Shown here: in pieces, positions 6,540 through 49,463 of the stretch
Numbering within the stretch: the stretch's first letter is position 1
Layout: the number at the start of each line of letters is the position of its first letter
Assembly (NCBI GenBank): GCA_944331715.1
Contig: CALVIP010000005.1
Location: 1 to 59,345, forward strand
Length of the DNA: 59,345 nucleotides
Source: an uncultured Bacilli bacterium
GTDB taxonomy: Bacteria > Bacillota_I > Bacilli_A > RF39 > UBA660
Direction: 5' to 3'
The notes under the pieces: generated by a model
What the model saw: only the letters and a program-made list of their open reading frames with translations
The model's database searches: none
Told to the model about the DNA's origin: nothing
Program-made: the position numbers and the translations under genes

Positions 6540-7715
6540 TTGTCTAAACATATAGTTGGTATTATCGCTGAATATAATCCTTTTCATAATGGACATTTAT
6601 ATCATATAGAAAAGGTTAAAGAAATGTTTCCAGATAGTCCTATTATATTAGTACTAGGCGGTAATTTTACAGAAAGAGGAGATATATCAATATTAGATAA
6701 ATGGGAGAAAACTGTAATTGCTATTAAAAATGGAATAGATTTAGTAGTAGAACTTCCCTTTCCTTTCTCTTGTTCATCAGCAGATATCTTTGCAAAAGGT
6801 TCTCTTGATATTTTAAACTATTTAGGAGTTACTGATTTAGTATTTGGTAGTGAATCTGATGATATAGAAGGTATTAAAAAATTAGTAGAGACTGAGCTTT
6901 CTAACCCTGATTTTGATAATTTAGTACAAGTTTATTTAAGAATGGGTTATAACTACCCTACTTCTTTATCTAAAGCTTTAGAAGATATAACAGGAGATTG
7001 TTTTAAACTACCTAATGATATTTTAGGTATTAGTTATGTAAAAACAATTTACTCTAATAATTATAAAATAACACCTCATACTATTAAAAGAACTAATGAT
7101 TATCATAGTAAAGAATTAGATAATATGAGCATAAGGAGTATATCCAGTGCAACTAGTATAAGAGAAGCTTTACTAAATAATAAAGATATTAAAGACAGTG
7201 TACCTTCTATCACTTATAGTTATTTAAAAGATAAGAAAATACCTAAGTTAGATGATTATTTTAATCTCTTAAAGTATAAAATAATAAGTTGCAATGATTT
7301 AACTATCTATAATCTAGTAGATAGTGGTATTGCTACCAAACTAAAAAAAGAAATACTTAATAGTTATAGTTTTGATGAACTTATTAATAAAGTTAAAAGT
7401 AAGAACCTAACCTACTCTAGACTTTCTAGGACTTTAATTTATATATTATGTGATTATACAAAGGTGCAAGCTAAAGAGTTTAAGAAAGTTAAGTATATTA
7501 GATTGTTAGGGTTTTCTAATAAAGGAAGAGATTATTTAAATAGAATAAAAAAATATGTAGATATACCTATTATTAGTAAATTTACAAGAGAAAAAGATAA
7601 GATGTTAGAATATGAATATCAAATTACGAAGATATATTCTTTAGTTTTTGATAAAGATAAGGCTAAAAGCTTAATAGAAGCTGAATATAAGATGAAACCT
7701 ATAAGGGAGGAATAA
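6540..7715 (+). CDS. tmcAL: tRNA(Met) cytidine acetate ligase TmcAL
   Basis: Makes N4-acetylcytidine at the wobble base of elongator tRNA-Met from acetate and ATP (YlbM family). TTG 6540 is the likely start: AAGAAAGGGG lies 8 bases upstream and translation begins SKHIVGIIAEYNPFHNGH, like family members; the GTG at 6531 overlaps the SD. About 391 aa. Seen: nucleotidyltransferase motif HNGH, GGNFTERGD, VVELPFPFSCSSADIF, and IRSISSATSIR near residue 200. It is followed 3 bases later by gmk in one operon. An elongator tRNA-Met gene, its substrate, lies at 40424. Confidence 0.93.
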   Translation: MSKHIVGIIAEYNPFHNGHLYHIEKVKEMFPDSPIILVLGGNFTERGDISILDKWEKTVIAIKNGIDLVVELPFPFSCSSADIFAKGSLDILNYLGVTDLVFGSESDDIEGIKKLVETELSNPDFDNLVQVYLRMGYNYPTSLSKALEDITGDCFKLPNDILGISYVKTIYSNNYKITPHTIKRTNDYHSKELDNMSIRSISSATSIREALLNNKDIKDSVPSITYSYLKDKKIPKLDDYFNLLKYKIISCNDLTIYNLVDSGIATKLKKEILNSYSFDELINKVKSKNLTYSRLSRTLIYILCDYTKVQAKEFKKVKYIRLLGFSNKGRDYLNRIKKYVDIPIISKFTREKDKMLEYEYQITKIYSLVFDKDKAKSLIEAEYKMKPIREE

Positions 7716-7718
7716 GAT

Positions 7719-8408
7719 ATGGATAATATGGTTAAAACAAAGAAACAAGGGCTTTTAATAGTTATTTCAGGGCCTTCAGGTTGTGGTAAAAATAGTATAA
7801 TTAATGAATTGTTAAAAATAAGAAAGAATACTTGGGTATCTATATCATGTACTAGTAGAGAACCAAGAGGTGAAGAAAAAGATGGTATTAACTATTATTT
7901 CTTATCTAAAGAAGAGTTTGAAGAAGATATTAATAATGATGAATTCTTAGAATATGCAGAATACTCTGGTAATTACTATGGTACTCCTAAGAAATATATT
8001 AAAGAACATTTGGATAAGGGTGAAGATGTAATTCTTGAAATAGAGATTCAAGGAGCTTTAAAGATTAAAGAAAAGTTAGATGAGACTGTATTTATCTTTA
8101 TAATGCCACCTACTATGAATGAATTAAAAAGACGTCTTATTAATAGAAATACTGATAGTTTAGAAAAAATAGAAAAAAGGTTTAAAAGAGCTTATGAAGA
8201 GATAAATGAAATACCTAAATATAACTATGTAGTTGTTAATGATGATTTAGATAAAGCGGTTAAAAAGGTTGATGCTATTTTAGAAGCAGAACGTCTCAGA
8301 GTTGATAGAATTGAAGAAGTTTATCTAGACAGTAAAGAAGAAAAAATCCATGAAGCTTTACTTGATGATGTTAAAGAATTTGATAATTCTAAGATAGAAA
8401 TAAAATAA
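7719..8408 (+). CDS. gmk: Guanylate kinase
   Basis: Phosphorylates GMP to GDP with ATP. 229 aa, a little longer than the usual ~205 because of a charged C-terminal tail. P-loop GPSGCGKNSI near residue 20 (the usual form is GxGKGT; the Asn-Ser variant is unusual). GMP-binding region: SCTSREPRGEEKDGINYYF, EYAEYSGNYYGTP, and DVILEIEIQGA; lid RLINRNTDS. Last gene of the tmcAL operon. The typical yicC/rpoZ neighbours are absent. Confidence 0.93.
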   Translation: MDNMVKTKKQGLLIVISGPSGCGKNSIINELLKIRKNTWVSISCTSREPRGEEKDGINYYFLSKEEFEEDINNDEFLEYAEYSGNYYGTPKKYIKEHLDKGEDVILEIEIQGALKIKEKLDETVFIFIMPPTMNELKRRLINRNTDSLEKIEKRFKRAYEEINEIPKYNYVVVNDDLDKAVKKVDAILEAERLRVDRIEEVYLDSKEEKIHEALLDDVKEFDNSKIEIK

Positions 8409-8437
8409 GCAAGGAATAAAATCCTCGCTTATTTTTA
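8402..8437. terminator. Bidirectional terminator between gmk and pyk
   Basis: AAAATAAGCAAGG pairs with CCTCGCTTATTTT with a single A-C mismatch. It carries T-runs in both directions and serves both convergent genes. Confidence 0.8.
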
Positions 8438-9844
8438 TATTTCTTCAATCTTCATTAAGTTAGTAATTCTCTTAGTTTCTGTATTAGGGAAACCTCCAGT
8501 AATTACGATTAAATCTCCTTCATTAAGTTCCATAAACTCTTTAGCTTTCTCTACACTTTGTGTTAATACTTCATCAGTTGTATCTAAGAATGGTAAAGTA
8601 TCTGCATAAACACCCCAGTTTAAAGCTAAACGTCTACCAGTTTTCTCATCAGTACATAAAGCAAGTATTGGTGCATCTGGTTTTAAATTACTAATTACTC
8701 TTGCAGTTCTACCACTGATAGTAGCAGCACAGATTAATTTAGCACCAAGTGCATCTGTACTAAGTACAACATTAGAAGCAATAGATTTAGTAATGTTATC
8801 TAAGCTTTCGATATCAAAAGCATAATCAAAACTTGCATATTTTTCAGTAGTTTCACAAATATGAGCCATAGCAGCAACTGTTTCAATTGGATGTTTTCCT
8901 ACAGTAGTTTCACCACTTAACATAACAGCATCTGTACCGTCTAATACTGCATTAGCAATATCACTAGTTTCTGCTCTTTTTGGACGAATATTATCCATCA
9001 TTGTCTCAAGCATTTCAGTAGCAACAATAGATATTTTTCCAAGTCTTCTACAAGTATTGATCATTTGTTTTTGATAGATTGGAACCATCTCACTAGGTAC
9101 TTCGGTACCAAGGTCACCACGTGCTACCATAACACCATCACTAACACTTAAAATATCTTCTAAGTTTTCAATACCTAAAGCACTCTCAATCTTACAAATA
9201 ATTTGTAAGTCTTCTCTATTATGTTCTTTTAAGATTTCTTTAACTTCTAATACATCTTCTTTAGTAGAAACAAAAGATAGTGCAAGGAATTCTCCTCCAT
9301 GTTCACAAGCATAGATAATATCTTCACGATCTACATCACTAACATATGGGATATTAAGTTTAATACCAGGAACACTCATACTCTTACGGTTTCCTAATAC
9401 ACCACCATCAATAATCTTACAAGTAACTCTATCTTCATACTTAGCGATAACTTCAAGTTTCATCTTAGCATTCTCTAATAAGATAATATCACCAACATTA
9501 AGAGAATCAATAGCACTAGGATGATTAACAGAAAATCTTTCTTTAGTACCTGTAACAGTCTCTTTAACTATATCAATAGTTTCACCTGGAACAAGTTCAA
9601 TAGAATCATTTTCCATAATTCCACATCTAAATTCAGGACCTTTAGTATCCCAAAGAATAGCAACATTCATACCAGTTTTTTTTCTAACTTCACGAACTGA
9701 GGCACATGCTTTCTCTCTTTCTTCTATAGTAGCATGAGAAAAGTTAATTCTTGCTACATTCATTCCTGCTCTAACCATTTTTTCCATTACATCAGGTTCA
9801 TTACTAGCAGGACCTATACTACAAACAATCTTTGTCTTTTTCAT
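8435..9844 (-). CDS. pyk: Pyruvate kinase
   Basis: Converts phosphoenolpyruvate and ADP to pyruvate and ATP, the last step of glycolysis. 469 aa, the short form without the extra C-terminal domain of Bacillus PykA. Seen: TKIVCSIGPAS, NVARINFSHA, DTKGPEFR, ICKIESALGIENLE (catalytic Lys), MVARGDLGTEVP, and ATEMLETMMDNIRPKRAE. The C-terminal regulatory domain is intact (ATISGRTARVISNLKP). Monocistronic, with its own promoter at about 9880. Confidence 0.97.
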   Translation of the reverse strand: MKKTKIVCSIGPASNEPDVMEKMVRAGMNVARINFSHATIEEREKACASVREVRKKTGMNVAILWDTKGPEFRCGIMENDSIELVPGETIDIVKETVTGTKERFSVNHPSAIDSLNVGDIILLENAKMKLEVIAKYEDRVTCKIIDGGVLGNRKSMSVPGIKLNIPYVSDVDREDIIYACEHGGEFLALSFVSTKEDVLEVKEILKEHNREDLQIICKIESALGIENLEDILSVSDGVMVARGDLGTEVPSEMVPIYQKQMINTCRRLGKISIVATEMLETMMDNIRPKRAETSDIANAVLDGTDAVMLSGETTVGKHPIETVAAMAHICETTEKYASFDYAFDIESLDNITKSIASNVVLSTDALGAKLICAATISGRTARVISNLKPDAPILALCTDEKTGRRLALNWGVYADTLPFLDTTDEVLTQSVEKAKEFMELNEGDLIVITGGFPNTETKRITNLMKIEEI

Positions 9845-9877
9845 TATTTACTTCACTCCTTCTAATCAAGCTATATA

Positions 9878-9943
9878 ATTATAGCATAGTTTGATTAAAA
9901 TTAAAAGAGTCTTTTTCTTAAATTATATTACGAAAATTCGTAA
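9878..9943 (-). promoter_or_regulatory. pyk promoter and upstream 16-bp palindrome
   Basis: Minus-strand TATAAT at 9878-9883 with a weak TTTTAA -35. Upstream, TTACGAAAATTCGTAA (9928-9943) is a perfect palindrome, a likely operator. It is loosely like a Rex-type dyad but has no CAA/TTG ends, so no regulator is assigned. Confidence 0.5.
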
Positions 9944-9963
9944 CTAATTTATTACATTTTTTC

Positions 9964-9992
9964 TTGCTATAGAGAAATTAATATGATACTAT
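9964..9992 (+). promoter_or_regulatory. Promoter of type I toxin mRNA (locus 1)
   Basis: TTGCTA (9964-9969), 17-base spacer ending TATGA, TACTAT (9987-9992). The start of transcription is predicted near 9999. The same spacer end and -10 occur in the antitoxin promoter on the other strand. Confidence 0.55.
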
Positions 9993-10027
9993 TTATATAG
10001 AGAACATTTAATAGGATTAAACAGTGG

Positions 10028-10049
10028 TTAGCCTCAGAAAGGAGGCTAA
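10028..10049 (+). promoter_or_regulatory. Hairpin sequestering the toxin Shine-Dalgarno
   Basis: TTAGCCTC (10028-10035) pairs perfectly with GAGGCTAA (10042-10049), burying the GGAGG (10041-10045) that serves ATG 10053. This is a hallmark of type I toxin mRNAs, which stay untranslated until refolded. Confidence 0.7.
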
Positions 10050-10052
10050 TAT

Positions 10053-10145
10053 ATGAAAAAGAAAGATTGCTTAATTTCTTCCTTAATCATCATATTATTT
10101 CTTCAAAATCTCATATTTTTATTCATGATACTTGCTTTAATATAG
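10053..10145 (+). CDS. Predicted type I toxin peptide, 30 aa, hydrophobic
   Basis: MKKKD start, then an almost wholly hydrophobic stretch rich in Leu, Ile and Phe up to the stop; predicted to insert in the membrane. GGAGG lies 7 bases upstream but is locked in a hairpin. The ORF is followed at once by a bidirectional terminator, with a convergent small RNA on the other strand driven by a perfect TTGACA promoter. This is the architecture of Fst/Ldr-like type I toxin-antitoxin loci. The peptide is too short for sequence-based family assignment. A second peptide with the same KKD-plus-hydrophobic pattern is at 22790-22858. Confidence 0.6.
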   Translation: MKKKDCLISSLIIILFLQNLIFLFMILALI

Positions 10146-10147
10146 AA

Positions 10148-10266
10148 GAAACCACCTAGCTCAGCAATGATTTAGGTGGTTCTTAACATAATTTTATTAT
10201 TCGAGGCCACTCAACATGCCATTATTAAGTGTTCTCTCTTTTTTATTTTATGTAAATTTCTTTTAC
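10148..10266 (-). ncRNA. Predicted antitoxin small RNA, locus 1
   Basis: Minus-strand promoter TTGACA (10296-10301), 17 bases, TACTAT (10273-10278). The start is near 10266 and the terminator at 10150-10181, giving about 120 nt. Its 5' end forms a hairpin, GTAAAAGAAATTTAC. The RNA holds AGAGAACACTTAATA and AGTGGCCTC, close copies of the 5' part of the toxin mRNA. Its GCCTC could pair in trans with the toxin SD (GAGGC). Function is inferred. Confidence 0.6.
10150..10186. terminator. Bidirectional terminator shared by toxin mRNA and antitoxin RNA
   Basis: AACCACCTA (10150-10158) pairs with TAGGTGGTT (10173-10181). It works for the toxin mRNA on plus and for the small RNA on minus. Confidence 0.7.
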
Positions 10267-10366
10267 ATATTCATAGTATCATACATATTAACTTTTGTCA
10301 AAAAAATATTAGTAGAGATGATGACATTAGTTTTAAAAAAATGTATAATTAAGTGGGAGGATATAT

Positions 10367-11683
10367 ATGAAAGATATAGATTACAAACAAATTCAAAAAT
10401 TTTATAATGAATACAATAATGATAAAAATAACAAAATAGTTGAAAATGCTATGAAAAAAATAGGCATGGAAAGTTTTTGCTTAAATACTGATATTATTAA
10501 TAGAACTCCAAATGTTTTTAATATAGAATTGCCTAATACTAAAATATATGACCAAGAAGATTCTTGGCTATGTTGGCTTTATGCAGGAATAAATTTTATT
10601 GAAAGCAATATTGCTAATAATCTTAACATTTTACCTACAGATATAAATTTATCAGTAAATTATCTTTCTTTTTTTGATAAACTAGAAAAAGCTAATACTT
10701 TTTATAACAGAATAATTGAAAAAGATAATTTCGATTTAAAAACTGAAGTAAATAAATATTATATAGAGGATGCATTTTATGAAGGAGGACGTTTTACATT
10801 CTTCAAAGAGCTAGTTAATAAGTATGGTCTAGTTCCAGAAGATGTGATGCCTAAAACATTTGATAGTAAAAACTCTGAACAGCTAAGAAGACTTTATAAT
10901 GAAAAAGTAAAGAAAGATATGTTTAAATTACTAAAATTAAAAGAGAATAACACTTCAAAGGATAAACTTTATCTAAAAAAAGAAGAAATGTTAAACGAAA
11001 ATTATAACCTCTTATCTAAATGCTTAGGCTCTATTCATCTATCTTTCACATATGAATATAAAGATAAAGATGGAAAACTAATTAAATTAGAAAATATAAC
11101 TCCTATAGAATTTAAAAATAAATATTTATCTATCAACTTAGATGATTATGTAAGTATTGCCAATGTTCCTATGTATAATACTGAATATAGTAAACTTTAT
11201 AGAAAAGAATATAATGAAAATATAGATGGCGAATATGTTGAATTTATTAATAAACCTATCGAAATACTAAAGGATTTAGCAGTTAGACAATTAAAAGATG
11301 GTATGCCAGTTTATTTTGCCTGTAATATTGATAAAATGAGAGATAGAAAATCAGGTATATTAGATTCTAATTTATATAATTATAAAGAGGTATTTAATAT
11401 AGATTTATTAACTAAAGAAGAAGCTTTAAATAGCTTTGATATTTACTATCAACATTTAATGGTTATAACAGGAGTTCATATTGAGGATAATAAAACTATT
11501 AGATGGAAAGTTGAAAATAGTTATGGAGATAAATTATATAAAGATGGTTATTATATAATGAATGATAATTTCTTTAATGATTTTGTTCTTATGGTAATAA
11601 TTAATAAGAAATATTTAAGTAAGGAAGACCTAGAATTATTTAATACAAAGCCAACGATAATAGACAGATATAATCCATTTTAA
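10367..11683 (+). CDS. PepC/bleomycin-hydrolase-like C1 cysteine peptidase
   Basis: 438 aa, cytoplasmic (no signal peptide), usual PepC length. Papain-type active site appears complete: Q63 and C69 in YDQEDSWLCWLYAG, H363 in YQHLMVITGVH, N384 in WKVENSYGD. Other family marks are LSVNYLSFFDKLEKAN and GGRFTFFKELVNKYGLVPEDVMP. The usual SSGRCW around the Cys is changed to DSWLCW, so the specificity may differ from aminopeptidase C. It is flanked by two antitoxin-like small RNA units in direct repeat. A paralogue with a Cys-to-Ser change is at 19406-20713. Confidence 0.85.
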   Translation: MKDIDYKQIQKFYNEYNNDKNNKIVENAMKKIGMESFCLNTDIINRTPNVFNIELPNTKIYDQEDSWLCWLYAGINFIESNIANNLNILPTDINLSVNYLSFFDKLEKANTFYNRIIEKDNFDLKTEVNKYYIEDAFYEGGRFTFFKELVNKYGLVPEDVMPKTFDSKNSEQLRRLYNEKVKKDMFKLLKLKENNTSKDKLYLKKEEMLNENYNLLSKCLGSIHLSFTYEYKDKDGKLIKLENITPIEFKNKYLSINLDDYVSIANVPMYNTEYSKLYRKEYNENIDGEYVEFINKPIEILKDLAVRQLKDGMPVYFACNIDKMRDRKSGILDSNLYNYKEVFNIDLLTKEEALNSFDIYYQHLMVITGVHIEDNKTIRWKVENSYGDKLYKDGYYIMNDNFFNDFVLMVIINKKYLSKEDLELFNTKPTIIDRYNPF

Positions 11684-31192: not shown

Positions 31193-31790
31193 TCTAGGGT
31201 TTAATTCCCCGTTGCTTGCAACGTAAGGCCGAACGTAGTATTATAAATACGAAGTGAGGGCGATGTTATGGAAGAGAGTCAATATCTATATTTGTCGCAC
31301 AACGTAAGCAATCTTGTTTACCACATTGTATGTCCAGCAAAATACCGTCGTGTAGTATTTGATGAAACAGTGGATGAACATCTTCGACAAATTTGTCTTG
31401 AGATAGAGAAACGTTATGACTATATTGTTTTTCTAGAGATAGGTACGGATAAAGATCATGTACATTTTCTAGTTCAAAGCACACCAAACTATGCACCTAG
31501 TAAAATAGTTCAAATAATAAAGAGCATAACAGCAAGACAAATTTTTGTCGAATGTCCTCAAGTAAAGAAACAACTATGGGGAGGACAGTTTTGGTCAGAC
31601 GGTTATTTTGTGGCTACAGTAGGAAAAAATCAAAATGAATCGGTAATAAAAGAATATGTAAAAAATCAAGGTAAACAAGATGCGGAATACAAGCAGTTAT
31701 ATTTGAAATTTCAACAGAAAAAATAACATCGCTTTGGAAAGATACCCCGTAGCTTGCTGCGGGGAGTATTCATTAGCAGATGCGAGAGAC
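31193..31790 (+). mobile_element. IS200/IS605-family insertion sequence, tnpA only
   Basis: Single-stranded transposon unit with subterminal hairpins. Left: CGTTGC-TT-GCAACG (31210-31223). Right: CCCCGTAGC-TT-GCTGCGGGG (31745-31764). They enclose one Y1 transposase gene and no tnpB. No terminal inverted repeats or target duplication are expected for the family. Exact ends cannot be fixed without the empty site; the bounds are approximate. Confidence 0.7.
31268..31726 (+). CDS. tnpA: IS200/IS605 Y1 transposase TnpA
   Basis: 152 aa. HUH motif in DKDHVHFLVQS, catalytic Tyr in SVIKEYVKNQG, plus YHIVCPAKYRRVVF, ITARQIFVE and WGGQFWSDGYFVATVG, all typical of TnpA. Higher GC and different codon use from its neighbours, consistent with recent arrival. 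The frame is intact, so the element could be active. Confidence 0.92.
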   Translation: MEESQYLYLSHNVSNLVYHIVCPAKYRRVVFDETVDEHLRQICLEIEKRYDYIVFLEIGTDKDHVHFLVQSTPNYAPSKIVQIIKSITARQIFVECPQVKKQLWGGQFWSDGYFVATVGKNQNESVIKEYVKNQGKQDAEYKQLYLKFQQKK

Positions 31791-33572: not shown

Positions 33573-34268
33573 CTAGCTAGTTTCTTCTTTTTTTAAGAGT
33601 TTAGCATGGACTACTACCCTTTTACCAAAATTATCTTTACAAGTAGAAAGAGTTAGTATTTTATCATTTGTATTTACATCTGTATTAAAATTATAAATAC
33701 TTCTTTTCATAATTGTTTCTAAAAACTCTTTAAAATACTTATTACTACTAAAATATGTCTTAATATAATAACCTTCTTTAGGTATAGTATAAACACTAAA
33801 TATTTTAAAAGTCATTATACTATTAGGAGTAGAAAGCGTTATATAATAACTTTCTTTACTATCTAGGTTATTACTATCTAATAGATTATTTAAACTACCA
33901 AACATAGTATTATCAAGTCTACCATGACCATAAATAATATTATTCTTTGATAAATTATCTAAGTCGTTACGATAATCTAAGAAAATAGAACCTATATTAT
34001 TTTTTTCTTTTGTATAAGAGTGGTTTAAGTAATAACTATTATCACTACTCTTTACAACTGGATAACTAATATTAGTATTATCTACTTCTATATAGCCAAC
34101 TATATCAGAGTTCATTTTTTTTAACTTATCAAAATCGTATTCTGCTATTTTTTCTTTAAATTCTAAATCTTTTTTATAACTATAGTAATAACTAGTAATA
34201 TTATAAATTAGTATCATGATAATAATGCTACTGATTATAAAGACTAAATACCATTTTCTTTTCTTCAC
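33573..34268 (-). CDS. srtB: Class B sortase
   Basis: 231 aa, GTG start at 34268 behind GGAGGTGA. N-terminal membrane anchor (KWYLVFIISSIIIMILIYNI). SrtB-type core: NTNISYPVVKSSDNSYYLNHSY, IGSIFLDYRND, catalytic His in IIYGHGRLDNTMFGSL, Cys in TLSTCKD and Arg in GKRVVVHA. It probably anchors the neighbouring protein through its NPETSD motif (SrtB enzymes favour NPxTx-type motifs). The two genes are tail to tail. Confidence 0.88.
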   Translation of the reverse strand: MKKRKWYLVFIISSIIIMILIYNITSYYYSYKKDLEFKEKIAEYDFDKLKKMNSDIVGYIEVDNTNISYPVVKSSDNSYYLNHSYTKEKNNIGSIFLDYRNDLDNLSKNNIIYGHGRLDNTMFGSLNNLLDSNNLDSKESYYITLSTPNSIMTFKIFSVYTIPKEGYYIKTYFSSNKYFKEFLETIMKRSIYNFNTDVNTNDKILTLSTCKDNFGKRVVVHAKLLKKEETS

Positions 34269-45404: not shown

Positions 45405-45430
45405 CAAAAAGACCTCTATTATTTAGAAGT
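45405..45430. terminator. Terminator of the histidine kinase gene, repeat copy B
   Basis: AAGAC-c-TCT-ATTATTT-AGA-a-GTCTT overlaps the end of the histidine kinase gene and also ends the ATPase gene. Copy A is at 44008-44033; the inner base pair differs but stays paired. Confidence 0.65.
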
Positions 45431-46693
45431 CTTCTTAAATATAACAAAGGATACACCTTTTTTTTCGTTCTTAACTTTAATATCATAGTTCATTAGTAAT
45501 AAGGTTTTTTTGACTATTGAAAGTCCTAATCCAAATTCACCCTTAATACCTTTCCGGAACGGAGTAAAGATTCCTTCAAGGAGAGTATCATCGATATTAG
45601 GACCATCATTATATAAGGTTAAACGGTTATTTTTGGCAGTAATTTTAATTGTAGACTCTGTATATCTCATGAAGTTAGCAAGGATATTATCTATTACAGT
45701 CTCAAAGTAATCGTAAGTACCATAGAATTTACTATTTTTATCAAAAGAAACTTCGAATTTAACATCTTTTCTTCTAAACTTAAATTCTTTTATCGCAGTA
45801 TTAATTATTTTTTTAATATCTACTAACTCATAGTCTACTTTTTTATTATCTTTTAAATAATCTAATTTATTCAAATAAAGAAGTGAATGAACTTTTAATT
45901 CAAGCTTATCAGTTTGTTCACTAATAACATCTATTACAGTATTAGCATCTTCTATTTTATCATTATAAGCTTCTATATATGATTTTATTACGGTGAGAGG
46001 TGTTTTAAAATCATGTGAAATATTTTGATACATTTGATTACGATACTCTTCTTGGTTCTTTAAAGAGATACGCATATCTTCAATAGCCAGTTCTAATGAA
46101 CGCATTTCATCGTCAATTTGAAATGATATACTATGATCATAGTTATCATTATCAATGTTGTCAATTTTTTGTTTTAACTTTTCTATTTTTCTAACTATAA
46201 AGCTTCCCCAGAATATAAGGATTAAAGCGATTATTAGAAAAGCTAGTATTACTACAGGTAGTACTGCGTCTAATATATCTTGTTTAGTCTTTTCAATATA
46301 AGTATCATTGGTAAGAGCTATTTTAGTAACATCATCATTATGGAGTGTATAATAATAATAAATTTGATTTTTATAAATAAATTTTCCGTAATTACTTTTA
46401 AAGGCATCCATAATATCATTAACATCATTAAAGTCTATAATATCATGGATGTTATCTGAATAGGCAACTGTATTTCCTATTTTATATAGGTATGCAATCT
46501 CAGTTGTAACTAAGTCTTCATTAATATCTGATTGGACAAATTCAAGAGGTTCTCTTAAGTAACTATAGATATTACTTTCTGCAGAAGGGACAATGACTTG
46601 AGGTAATATTATGCCAAGAGTTAGAAAGAAAGCTAGAAATACTACTATTATTAATATTAATAACTGATGAGACAGTTTATTTAGATATTTCAT
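45419..46693 (-). CDS. Sensor histidine kinase
   Basis: 424 aa. TM1 (LLILIIVVFLAFFLTLGIIL) and TM2 (about 135-165) enclose an outside sensor domain of about 110 residues. A HAMP-like linker follows, then the H-box NISHDFKTPLTVIKSYIEAY with the phospho-His. N-box FETVIDNILANFMRYT and G-box GEFGLGLSIVKK form the ATPase. It overlaps the regulator gene by 4 bases. Signal unknown. It lies beside the DGR-diversified surface gene, which may be a target (inference). Confidence 0.92.
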   Translation of the reverse strand: MKYLNKLSHQLLILIIVVFLAFFLTLGIILPQVIVPSAESNIYSYLREPLEFVQSDINEDLVTTEIAYLYKIGNTVAYSDNIHDIIDFNDVNDIMDAFKSNYGKFIYKNQIYYYYTLHNDDVTKIALTNDTYIEKTKQDILDAVLPVVILAFLIIALILIFWGSFIVRKIEKLKQKIDNIDNDNYDHSISFQIDDEMRSLELAIEDMRISLKNQEEYRNQMYQNISHDFKTPLTVIKSYIEAYNDKIEDANTVIDVISEQTDKLELKVHSLLYLNKLDYLKDNKKVDYELVDIKKIINTAIKEFKFRRKDVKFEVSFDKNSKFYGTYDYFETVIDNILANFMRYTESTIKITAKNNRLTLYNDGPNIDDTLLEGIFTPFRKGIKGEFGLGLSIVKKTLLLMNYDIKVKNEKKGVSFVIFKKTSK

Positions 46694-47352
46694 GCACTTA
46701 ATCTATATCCATATCCATAAATAGTATTAACGTTTAATAAAGGCATTTTCTTTCTAAGTCTTCTAACTAAATCATCTACGGCTCTATCACTACCAAAGTA
46801 ATCATTACCCCATACAGCATCAAGTATATCTTCTCTTGAAAAAGATTTATTAATATTTTCTACTAATAATATAAGTAAATCAAATTCTAGTGTTGTAAGC
46901 TTAATAGGTTTATCTTTAACACTTACAATACGTTTATCTAAATCTATAGAATAATCTAAATAATTTAGAATCTTAGATTCAGTACTTTGATATACTCTTT
47001 TTATAATATTATTAACTCTTAAAACAAGTTCTTTACTAGAATAAGGTTTAGTAATGTAATCATCGCTACCTAACTCAAGGCCTAAAATTCGATCCAAATC
47101 CTGATCTCTTGCAGATGTAAATATTACAGGTACAAGGGGATATTTTTCACGAATTGCTTTGATTACATCATAGCCATTAACATCATCTCCTAACATAATA
47201 TCTAGAATCCAGACATCAACAGGATTACCTATATAACTAATGGCTTCGCTTCCTTTAGTAAAGGTAACAACGTCATAGCCTGCTTTTTCTAAATACATTT
47301 TAACTACAGTTGCTAAATCAGTTTCATCTTCAACTAAACATATTTTATACAT
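46690..47352 (-). CDS. OmpR/PhoB-type response regulator
   Basis: 220 aa from ATG 47352 (AGGTGG 5-6 bases upstream). Receiver with acidic pocket (LVEDETD), phospho-Asp in WILDIMLGDDVNG, Thr in VIFTSARD, Lys in DYITKPYSSKEL. C-terminal winged helix (LTTLEFDLLILLVENINKSFSREDILDAVWG and DDLVRRLRKKM). Partner of the kinase overlapping its 3' end. Confidence 0.94.
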   Translation of the reverse strand: MYKICLVEDETDLATVVKMYLEKAGYDVVTFTKGSEAISYIGNPVDVWILDIMLGDDVNGYDVIKAIREKYPLVPVIFTSARDQDLDRILGLELGSDDYITKPYSSKELVLRVNNIIKRVYQSTESKILNYLDYSIDLDKRIVSVKDKPIKLTTLEFDLLILLVENINKSFSREDILDAVWGNDYFGSDRAVDDLVRRLRKKMPLLNVNTIYGYGYRLSA

Positions 47353-47577
47353 AGACACCACCTACCCCTAGTATAACATTAATTCAAGTTTTTGCCTACA
47401 AGTAAGTAGGCTTATCACTCTCCTTTCTTTTCTATAATTTATGTAAAAAAACTATAGTTGTAAACGTAACTTAAAATTCTCTACTACATTTACCACTTCC
47501 TTTCTTTTACGTATTAATCATATCAATTAAAAGTGTATAAATTATAAAAGAATTATGGGAAATTATGGGAAAAGAAA

Positions 47578-47606
47578 AAGAATATCTATAAAAGATACTC
47601 TTAACT
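47578..47606 (-). terminator. Terminator of the DGR target gene
   Basis: Minus strand AAGAGTATCT (47593-47602) pairs with AGATATTCTT (47578-47587) with one mismatch, then TTTCTTTT. Overlaps the stop. Confidence 0.6.
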
Positions 47607-49463
47607 AGCTAGTTCCAATGTAAATGGATTGTTTTTAGTTCCATCACCATTTACAATTTGCACGTTTGATTTTAGATTTATTGACGGCCGGACACCGAGC
47701 GCGCGGGCCGAAGTAATGTTGTACGCGTAACCATAGTCGTTCACATTACGCACGTAAGACGTACTGTATGGTGTTAAAGTCCAATAAGATGTATTATTAC
47801 CATATCTATCAAATTGTCCGGACATTAATTCTCCTAATCTTAGTAATCCTACTTTAGCATTCGTTATTGATGCAGTTGTACTACTCATATTAGTATCTGT
47901 ATATTTTGCTAATTTATATGAAGTACCAATTCCTACAGTTCCAAGATACCAAGTTGTATTATCTTCTATCATATCACTATATGTACTATCTACATAACTA
48001 TTTAAATATTCTCCATTTAAGAATGTACCTATTGTTGTACTACTTGAATAATTAACACTACTATTACTATCAAATGCACTTGTTATAAAGGTACCAGAAC
48101 TCTTTAATGGTTCGGCACTTACTATTTTTGTTCCTGTTCCATTTTCGTGGCTTACTATTCTATATAGATTATTTTCATCATTTCCAAATCTTATATATTC
48201 CCCACTATACCTGCTTGACAACAATGTTCCTGAAAGATTAGTATCATTATCTCCGTTTAAGCGATAAGGGTTATCTATTGTTCCATCACCATCTACAATT
48301 TTAACGCTAGATTTTAGATTTATTGATGGCCGGACACCGCTCGCGTTGGCCGAAGTACGGTAGTTCGCGTCACCATTGTTGCTCACGTAACGCACGTTAG
48401 ACGTACTGTATGGTGTTAAGGTCCACCACCAAAGTACATTATTTAAATAACCATTACTATATGTTGTTCCTGTATAACTAGATTGATATTCATACATATT
48501 AAGTAATCCTACTGCATCGGTTACTGTGGTAGTCCCATTTGGTCTTGTTATACTTCCTAAATCTGTTGCATCCATTGTCGCATCCCATACACTATCTGTT
48601 ACGATAAAGTTATCATAATCTCTTAAATTACCTAAGAATCCATCTACTGTTGTATCATTTAGCCAATCTTCCATATAACTTCCTTCAAATGCAGTTTGTT
48701 TTTCAGGATTATATGGAATTGTGCTTATAGTCCACTGCGTTACTAATTTAACCGTCTTTGCTTCTTTATTTACAGACACCGCTCTCCATAACTTTCCACT
48801 ATACCAGATATAGTTATTAGGGTCAGTTCCCGTTATAAATGTATCTATCCCATCATCATAAAGATTATCTTTAGGTATATTTGCTAACAATGTTTCTGCT
48901 ACTGTTGGTCTTTCTTGAGATACTTCTACTCTTAACTTACCACTAAATACTTGACCTGAATAATTACCATCTACATCACTAGTTATCCAAAGATTTAGAC
49001 TATATGTATTTGTCCTTCCACCTTCTATAGTTCCAGAATCTAATACTCTATTAGGGTTAGTTCCTGTCTTAGTTAAAAGTGTCGCTCCACTGTCAATTCC
49101 ATTCTTATTTAAATTATACTTTAAATACTTATCATCTATTCTTGTATCAGTATCACTTATAGTATTATCATCTAAATAAATTGTATAATCTACAGCCTTG
49201 TTGCCATTATTTCTTAACTCAAAAGTAGAAGGTGTTGAACTCATACCTTTACTATCACTTATACCTATAGCATTATCTAAACTTATCCCCTCACTAGTCT
49301 CATCTAATACTAACTCTAACTCCCCTACTTTTACTATTTGATCTGTTCCATATAACTGTGTAGAAAAGTAAGCATAACTTATCGCTAATGCTAATACTAA
49401 TATAATTACTATACTAATTACTATTGTTATTACTTGCTTCTTTTTATTATTAGTTTCTTCCAT
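47601..49463 (-). CDS. Surface protein with two DGR-type variable regions
   Basis: 620 aa. SD TAGGAGTG before ATG 49463. N-terminal KKK then TM (about 10-31, VITIVISIVIILVLALAISY) and AYFST, as in TasA/camelysin-type surface proteins, with a beta-rich stalk to about 190. Two DUF6273-like (C-type-lectin/FGE-fold) domains follow, about 205-400 and 405-620. Each ends WTLTPYSTS-variable-GVRPSINLKS. The variable blocks, residues 356-375 and 570-589, are identical in nucleotide sequence outside AAY-type codons and GC-rich in an AT-rich gene. That is how reverse-transcriptase-driven adenine mutagenesis looks. Ligand unknown; probably a diversified surface binding protein. Confidence 0.82.
   Translation of the reverse strand: MEETNNKKKQVITIVISIVIILVLALAISYAYFSTQLYGTDQIVKVGELELVLDETSEGISLDNAIGISDSKGMSSTPSTFELRNNGNKAVDYTIYLDDNTISDTDTRIDDKYLKYNLNKNGIDSGATLLTKTGTNPNRVLDSGTIEGGRTNTYSLNLWITSDVDGNYSGQVFSGKLRVEVSQERPTVAETLLANIPKDNLYDDGIDTFITGTDPNNYIWYSGKLWRAVSVNKEAKTVKLVTQWTISTIPYNPEKQTAFEGSYMEDWLNDTTVDGFLGNLRDYDNFIVTDSVWDATMDATDLGSITRPNGTTTVTDAVGLLNMYEYQSSYTGTTYSNGYLNNVLWWWTLTPYSTSNVRYVSNNGDANYRTSANASGVRPSINLKSSVKIVDGDGTIDNPYRLNGDNDTNLSGTLLSSRYSGEYIRFGNDENNLYRIVSHENGTGTKIVSAEPLKSSGTFITSAFDSNSSVNYSSSTTIGTFLNGEYLNSYVDSTYSDMIEDNTTWYLGTVGIGTSYKLAKYTDTNMSSTTASITNAKVGLLRLGELMSGQFDRYGNNTSYWTLTPYSTSYVRNVNDYGYAYNITSARALGVRPSINLKSNVQIVNGDGTKNNPFTLELAS
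47672..47783 (-). repeat. DGR variable region 2 (C-terminal)
   Basis: Coding strand TGG ACT TTA ... CTA. Variable codons lie at 47697-47756. Constant parts such as GTCCGGCC and TACAGTACGTCT equal VR1 base for base. Codons CGG, GCC, GTC and TCG are rare elsewhere in the window. Confidence 0.78.
48313..48423 (-). repeat. DGR variable region 1 (internal)
   Basis: Variable codons at 48339-48398. Eleven codons differ from VR2 (TAC/AAC, AAT/TAC, AAC/AGC, GAC/AAC, TAT/AAT, TAC/GAC, TAC/AAC, AAC/TAC, ATT/CGT, CGC/AAC, CTC/AGC, VR2 first). That is 15 base differences, 11 with A in one copy. Confidence 0.78.

Follow-up and report, generated by a model that had tools for sequence, protein, structure and literature searches.

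The gene described here, a single reading frame of 620 codons, is very probably a target of a diversity-generating retroelement (DGR) with two variable repeats (VRa and VRb), as a preliminary description had proposed from the DNA letters. This reading is supported by change limited to template adenines, both against the template repeats (TRs) of seven genomes and against the ortholog in a sister species, by complete DGR cassettes in sister genomes, and by a TR in the same genome. The stretch of DNA that was analysed (the window, 59,345 nucleotides) is the whole contig C5 of an assembly of 108 contigs and 1.16 Mb, 87.6% complete (genome about 1.2 Mb). The relatives used for comparison belong to Candidatus Onthousia, a genus of gut Bacilli whose named members come from chicken gut, and the window genome is probably a member too. 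In the following, genomes are labelled G (the own genome is G000), contigs C and loci L; contigs without a genome label are those of the own genome. The features of the gene and its surroundings are as follows:

47601..49463, minus strand: target gene (620 aa), the single open reading frame that holds both GC-rich blocks
48906..49355, minus strand: beta-sandwich domain, putatively TasA-like (residues 37-186), following the membrane helix at the N-terminus, from AlphaFold2 and a structural match
48249..48878, minus strand: DUF6273 module 1 (residues 196-405), VR near its C-terminal end; best PF19789 stretch at residues 250-385
48330..48407, minus strand: VRa, 26-codon core, in GC-rich block 48313-48423
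48148..48533, minus strand: 386-bp stretch covering VRa, identical in a gene with a pilin-like leader on contig C71 of the same genome
47604..48248, minus strand: DUF6273-like module 2 (residues 406-620), VR near its C-terminal end, from the second PF19789 stretch and alignment
47688..47765, minus strand: VRb, 26-codon core, in GC-rich block 47672-47783
46690..47361, minus strand: response regulator gene adjoining the target gene (PF00072/PF00486; tblastn)
45419..46693, minus strand: histidine kinase gene overlapping the response regulator gene (PF00512/PF02518)

The protein consists of an N-terminal membrane helix, a putatively TasA-like beta-sandwich and two DUF6273 modules, each of which ends in a VR. 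PF19789 (DUF6273) matched it in two stretches with E=1.5e-10 and 41.6 bits against a curated cut-off of 23.5, which bears out the DUF6273-like part of the fold proposed earlier. The C-type lectin part was not confirmed, as the AlphaFold2 models (full protein and module 1, from shallow alignments) were too poor in the DUF6273 part to judge a C-type lectin fold around the VR, and the Foldseek matches of that part were not meaningful. DUF6273 in phage DGR targets has been reported to be lectin-like (PMC10743442). The protein may thus recognise variable ligands at the surface. The TasA-like membrane anchor of the preliminary description has moderate structural support: the best VIA-align match of the sandwich, modelled with pLDDT mostly 55-80, was the TasA fibre 8aur_A (Z 7.4, 127 residues, 3.3 A), with other structures scoring close, while a Pfam search of the protein gave no family match for this domain. 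The adjoining response regulator gene also neighbours the orthologous locus G019:C3 and a complete cassette in G002:C58. Two-component genes thus recur at these G019 and G002 loci. A sortase gene (33573-34268) and an IS200-type transposase gene (31268-31726) lie elsewhere in the window.

The two GC-rich blocks were located where the preliminary description had placed them. Over the 78-nt core, VRa and VRb differ at 15 bases in 11 codons, and the remainder is identical, including silent sites. The VR blocks have a GC content of 49-50%, compared with 33% for the target gene and 26.6% for the window; of the five GC-rich patches in the latter, two correspond to tRNA genes, a third is coding and the remaining two are the VRs. 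Outside the VRs, no significant similarity links the two protein halves (the best match, over 22 residues, has E 0.03), so a recent tandem duplication does not account for how nearly identical the VRs are. Judging from the sequence, the VRs, not the surrounding modules, are what stays alike.

We defined template-A positions as those with A in at least five of the seven same-length TRs taken from sister genomes, which gave 23 such positions and 55 others in the core. The differences between VRa and VRb fell on 14/23 template-A positions and on 1/55 others (Fisher p=1e-8, with the TR consensus taken from other genomes). It had been claimed that 11 of the 15 differences have A in one copy and that the other four fit an A changed in both copies. 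The 11 were found as described, and three of the remaining four lie on template adenines. The last, the third base of codon 7 (C/T), is an ordinary change, since this base is C in all seven comparable TRs, leaving 14 of 15 differences on template A. A similar pattern was observed across five distinct VRs of the own genome with the same skeleton (C5a, C5b, C71b, C1 and C23), in which 21 of the 23 adenine columns vary and 10 of the 55 others. The inferred cognate template has the skeleton AGTACGTCT-AAY-GTGCGT-AAY-GTG...ACTTCGGCC-AAY-GCG-AAY-GGTGTCCGG.

The preliminary description had also suggested comparing strains for changes confined to the variable codons. A sister species has its ortholog of this locus on G019:C3, with 4.5 kb aligned at 91.5% DNA identity and a response regulator of 98.6% protein identity. 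Between the two loci, VRa differs at 12/23 adenine sites and 4/55 other sites, and VRb at 11/23 and 2/55, giving 23/46 adenine sites against 6/110 others for both VRs combined (p=7e-10). Outside the VRs, 249 of 1692 sites of the gene changed. Conservation of the non-adenine VR sites (6/110) thus exceeds that of the remaining gene (p=0.003), in line with a rewriting of the VRs from a template after the two species diverged.

The preliminary description had noted that the window holds neither a reverse transcriptase (RT) nor a TR. This is correct, and both were found in the genome and the genus. Complete cassettes are present in G025, G002, G024, G008, G003 and other relatives, in the order two-VR gene, hairpin, conserved TATAAT-like box, TR, Avd-like protein and RT (about 317 aa); in some, an additional ORF of about 115 aa lies between TR and Avd. 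The cassette RT (L082) matched the PHROG reverse transcriptase family with E=5e-70, and its best PDB match was 8ub7_A (E=1.3e-18), the RT of Bordetella phage BPP-1. The cassette RT carries the DGR-type motif IGNYTSQ. The Avd-like partner in relatives matched the PHROG family "Avd protein of DGR" with E=2e-5 for type I and 8e-9 for type II, and its Pfam bAvd match (E=0.009) was below the cut-off.

TRs in sister genomes were recognised by their conserved 3' flank CGGCATTTCCTTTTAAACCTAGCATTAT, which identified a TR in 21 of 35 genus genomes, the own genome included. In its consensus fold, the TR RNA forms one stem that encloses the TR and a second immediately on its 3' side; covariation is limited (3/40 pairs). 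In 27 adjacent TR-VR pairs from relatives, 325/661 adenines (49%) were changed compared with 96/1439 other bases (6.7%), an odds ratio of 13.5, and several VRs had no non-adenine change at all. In G016:C20, the two VRs of one gene showed changes at 11/24 and 13/24 TR adenines and at 0/54 non-A positions in each, showing that one TR writes two VRs of one gene. In G019, the VRs on C24 and C3 match the TR on C49 except at 2 and 3 non-adenine sites, a pattern consistent with action in trans. Two VRs in tandem had been called unusual. This did not hold: tandem two-VR genes are the rule in Candidatus Onthousia, and several VRs in one ORF were described before, in 31 of 271 multi-VR DGRs (PMC6642488) and in a further system (PMC10907252).

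The own genome contains at least 10 VRs on six contigs (C5, C71, C12, C9, C1 and C23). The leader of the C71 gene is type IV pilin-like, and the other VR genes with an intact 5' end have related TasA-like leaders. The orientation of C1 and C23 would allow them to be parts of a single gene interrupted by a gap, though this is no more than a conjecture. Despite the unrelated leaders, VRa of the window is the same as VRa of C71 and lies inside the 386-bp identical stretch, which could reflect gene conversion or an assembly chimera rather than retrohoming. A further paralog, on C39 (L198 1479-2990), has a pilin-like leader and two DUF6273 modules with decayed VRs; these are AT-rich, non-template sequence (33-36% GC) and provide a natural control.

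The preliminary description had proposed to look for RT, Avd and TR in the rest of the genome. A single TR is present, on C12, with conserved flanks and an internal deletion of 12 nt relative to related TRs; it does not match the window VRs and is thus not their template. The 127-aa ORF behind it (L017 4759-5142) matched MutS domain I above the Pfam cut-off, and ORFs at a comparable position in complete cassettes, such as L082 4239-4574, matched no family. The C12 locus was rejected as a working cassette, since the TR and the MutS-I-like ORF remain there and Avd and RT are absent. In the 87.6%-complete assembly, no type-I RT was found, and no credible match to Avd (best E 0.06). A second DGR family, with a 368-aa RT, its own Avd, an accessory ORF of about 120 aa and a different target (L097-L101), is represented in the own genome by a partial RT cut by the contig end (G000:C80:2839-3459). 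This RT reads YMDG where relatives read YMDD, and is the only other non-intron RT of the assembly. The RT on C6 was rejected as a DGR RT, being a group II intron maturase (GIIM domain, TIGR04416). The two-VR gene on C9 has thiI close by, a neighbour that it shares with the complete cassettes of G003 and G024, with one extra gene between here, and its VRs match the TR of G019:C57 with one non-adenine mismatch each. Only 67 bp of contig C9 remain beyond VRb; in G003 and G024, this is the place of TR, Avd and RT. As the contig is cut where a cassette like those would start, type-I DGR machinery is likely to be present in the unassembled part of the own genome.

Searches of the own assembly with the VRs, the flank pattern and the inferred template yielded no cognate TR for the window VRs, and no TR across the genus matches their skeleton throughout (6-7 non-adenine mismatches at best). 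These results raise the question of whether the gene is a fossil, its VRs written by an ancestral DGR whose template has since been lost, so that only recombination and point mutation act on them now. The deletion in the C12 TR and the identity of the window VRa with that of C71 would fit such a history, as would a locus in G016. VRs of almost the same skeleton (1-2 differences) occur at G019:C3, G008:C70 and G016:C4. At G016:C4, the 5' half of a TR lies directly behind the two-VR gene and agrees with the inferred window template at 37/39 bases; the TR is interrupted by an element with tyrosine recombinase genes, and the 3' half of the TR was looked for and not found. This half-TR shows that a template of the expected kind exists and also one route by which it can be lost. 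However, the conservation of non-adenine VR sites relative to the rest of the gene fits a refresh since divergence from G019, and the assembly is incomplete, breaks at these repeats, and ends on C9 where a cassette should start. We therefore regard the fossil reading as doubtful, though a serious contender.

The element at G016:C4 belongs to a wider set. DGR TRs of several genomes are interrupted at the same site, after GGYAAYRYG, by an element whose ends are long inverted repeats (TTATAGGACAAAATAA...). Its copies are:

L090 (G034:C8) 7434-10941; G022:C20; G012:C36 and C82; G016:C4; G013:C48: TR-inserted element

In the G034 copy, three tyrosine recombinase genes lie in tandem, which recalls the "recombinase in trio" elements. 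In addition, the TRs at G008:C23:10971-11019 and G019:C24:2346-2394 are broken off at one point and then continue into the same unrelated sequence.

The double-VR proteins might instead be prophage or phage tail proteins, given that phages are known to carry DUF6273 targets (PMC11792537, PMC10743442) and that a weak match to a Hoc-like PHROG was obtained. This is very unlikely in view of the membrane helix and TasA-like leader and the housekeeping neighbours (uvrC, thiI, murG and two-component genes). Moreover, the TR flank was not found in viral contigs, a search for viral relatives of the module yielded none, and the viral matches were limited to RTs at 35-37% identity. Least probable of all, to the point of being nearly negligible, is that the VRs are alike through gene conversion or recent duplication combined with diversifying surface selection, without a retroelement: the 386-bp stretch shared with C71 does point to recombination among paralogs or a chimeric contig, but this explanation predicts neither changes that track the adenines of templates in other genomes, by which it is already contradicted, nor TR-Avd-RT cassettes beside the same genes, and the C39 paralog with decayed VRs has ordinary AT-rich sequence at that place.

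Under the DGR reading, the TR would be transcribed and then copied by an error-prone RT with an Avd-type partner, template adenines would be read as random bases, and the mutated cDNA would replace the matching VR by homing. One template would serve both VRs, with which the two DUF6273 modules end, and a single event could thus alter as many as a dozen or so residues of one binding face. The N-terminal membrane helix and TasA-like domain would display the two-VR module on the cell surface. The same module is fused to other leaders at several loci and would be fed by several templates, and loci without machinery of their own would be served in trans, or would have been served formerly, before template loss. 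For the window gene, whose cognate TR and type-I RT are absent from the incomplete assembly, trans diversification is plausible. The own cell would then have a working type-I RT and a cognate TR, with ongoing diversification and faces that bind ligands.

Like the system described here, Bordetella phage BPP-1 shows adenine-specific transfer from TR to VR with an Avd-type partner and a related RT, but it has one target with one VR, in cis, in a phage tail protein. Bacteroides gut bacteria reportedly diversify pilin-tip surface adhesins by DGR (Macadangdang et al. 2024, as cited in PMC12632263); these differ in their type V pili anchors and belong to another phylum. Thiohalocapsa PB-PSB1 (PMC10907252) resembles our genus in its several dispersed loci, at some of which the targets place several VRs in lectin domains arranged in tandem, in degenerate loci for which service in trans has been proposed, and in mobile elements that damage DGR parts. 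Its targets are putative conflict-system sensors, whereas those found here, TasA-like or pilin-like, are anchored in the membrane and encoded by a genome of about 1.2 Mb, with two VRs per gene as the rule across a genus. In gut-phage DUF6273 targets (PMC11792537, PMC10743442), the VR also lies at the DUF6273 C-terminus and one TR can feed two VRs, but these are in separate genes, whereas here both are in one cellular protein. A further published DGR system has many dispersed targets per genome, as here, and is not known to have tandem VRs in one protein.

DGRs, DUF6273 targets, multi-VR ORFs, tandem lectin VRs and trans service are thus already known, the last two from PMC10907252. As far as the literature consulted shows, the genus-wide two-VR rule on TasA-like or pilin-like anchors in small genomes is new, as are the many targets per template lineage and the repeated interruption of the TR by an element with three recombinases. 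These findings add a genus-wide cellular DGR with two hypervariable faces per surface-anchored protein and many targets served by few templates in a very small genome. Because assemblies from short reads are interrupted at precisely these repeats, DGR cassettes can easily escape notice. The genus offers a natural test system for trans diversification, for joint versus separate change of two VRs, and for template loss or silencing. As a tentative picture, possible though short of probable, this gut Bacilli genus may hold an interchangeable two-paratope repertoire, in which the double-VR module changes between leaders of the TasA-like and the pilin-like kind at many loci, recombination spreads it and a few template lineages diversify it in trans, with the three-recombinase transposon inserting in the TR and perhaps switching diversification off. 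Through the double-VR module, the cells would keep up a repertoire of binding proteins on their surface that changes rapidly.
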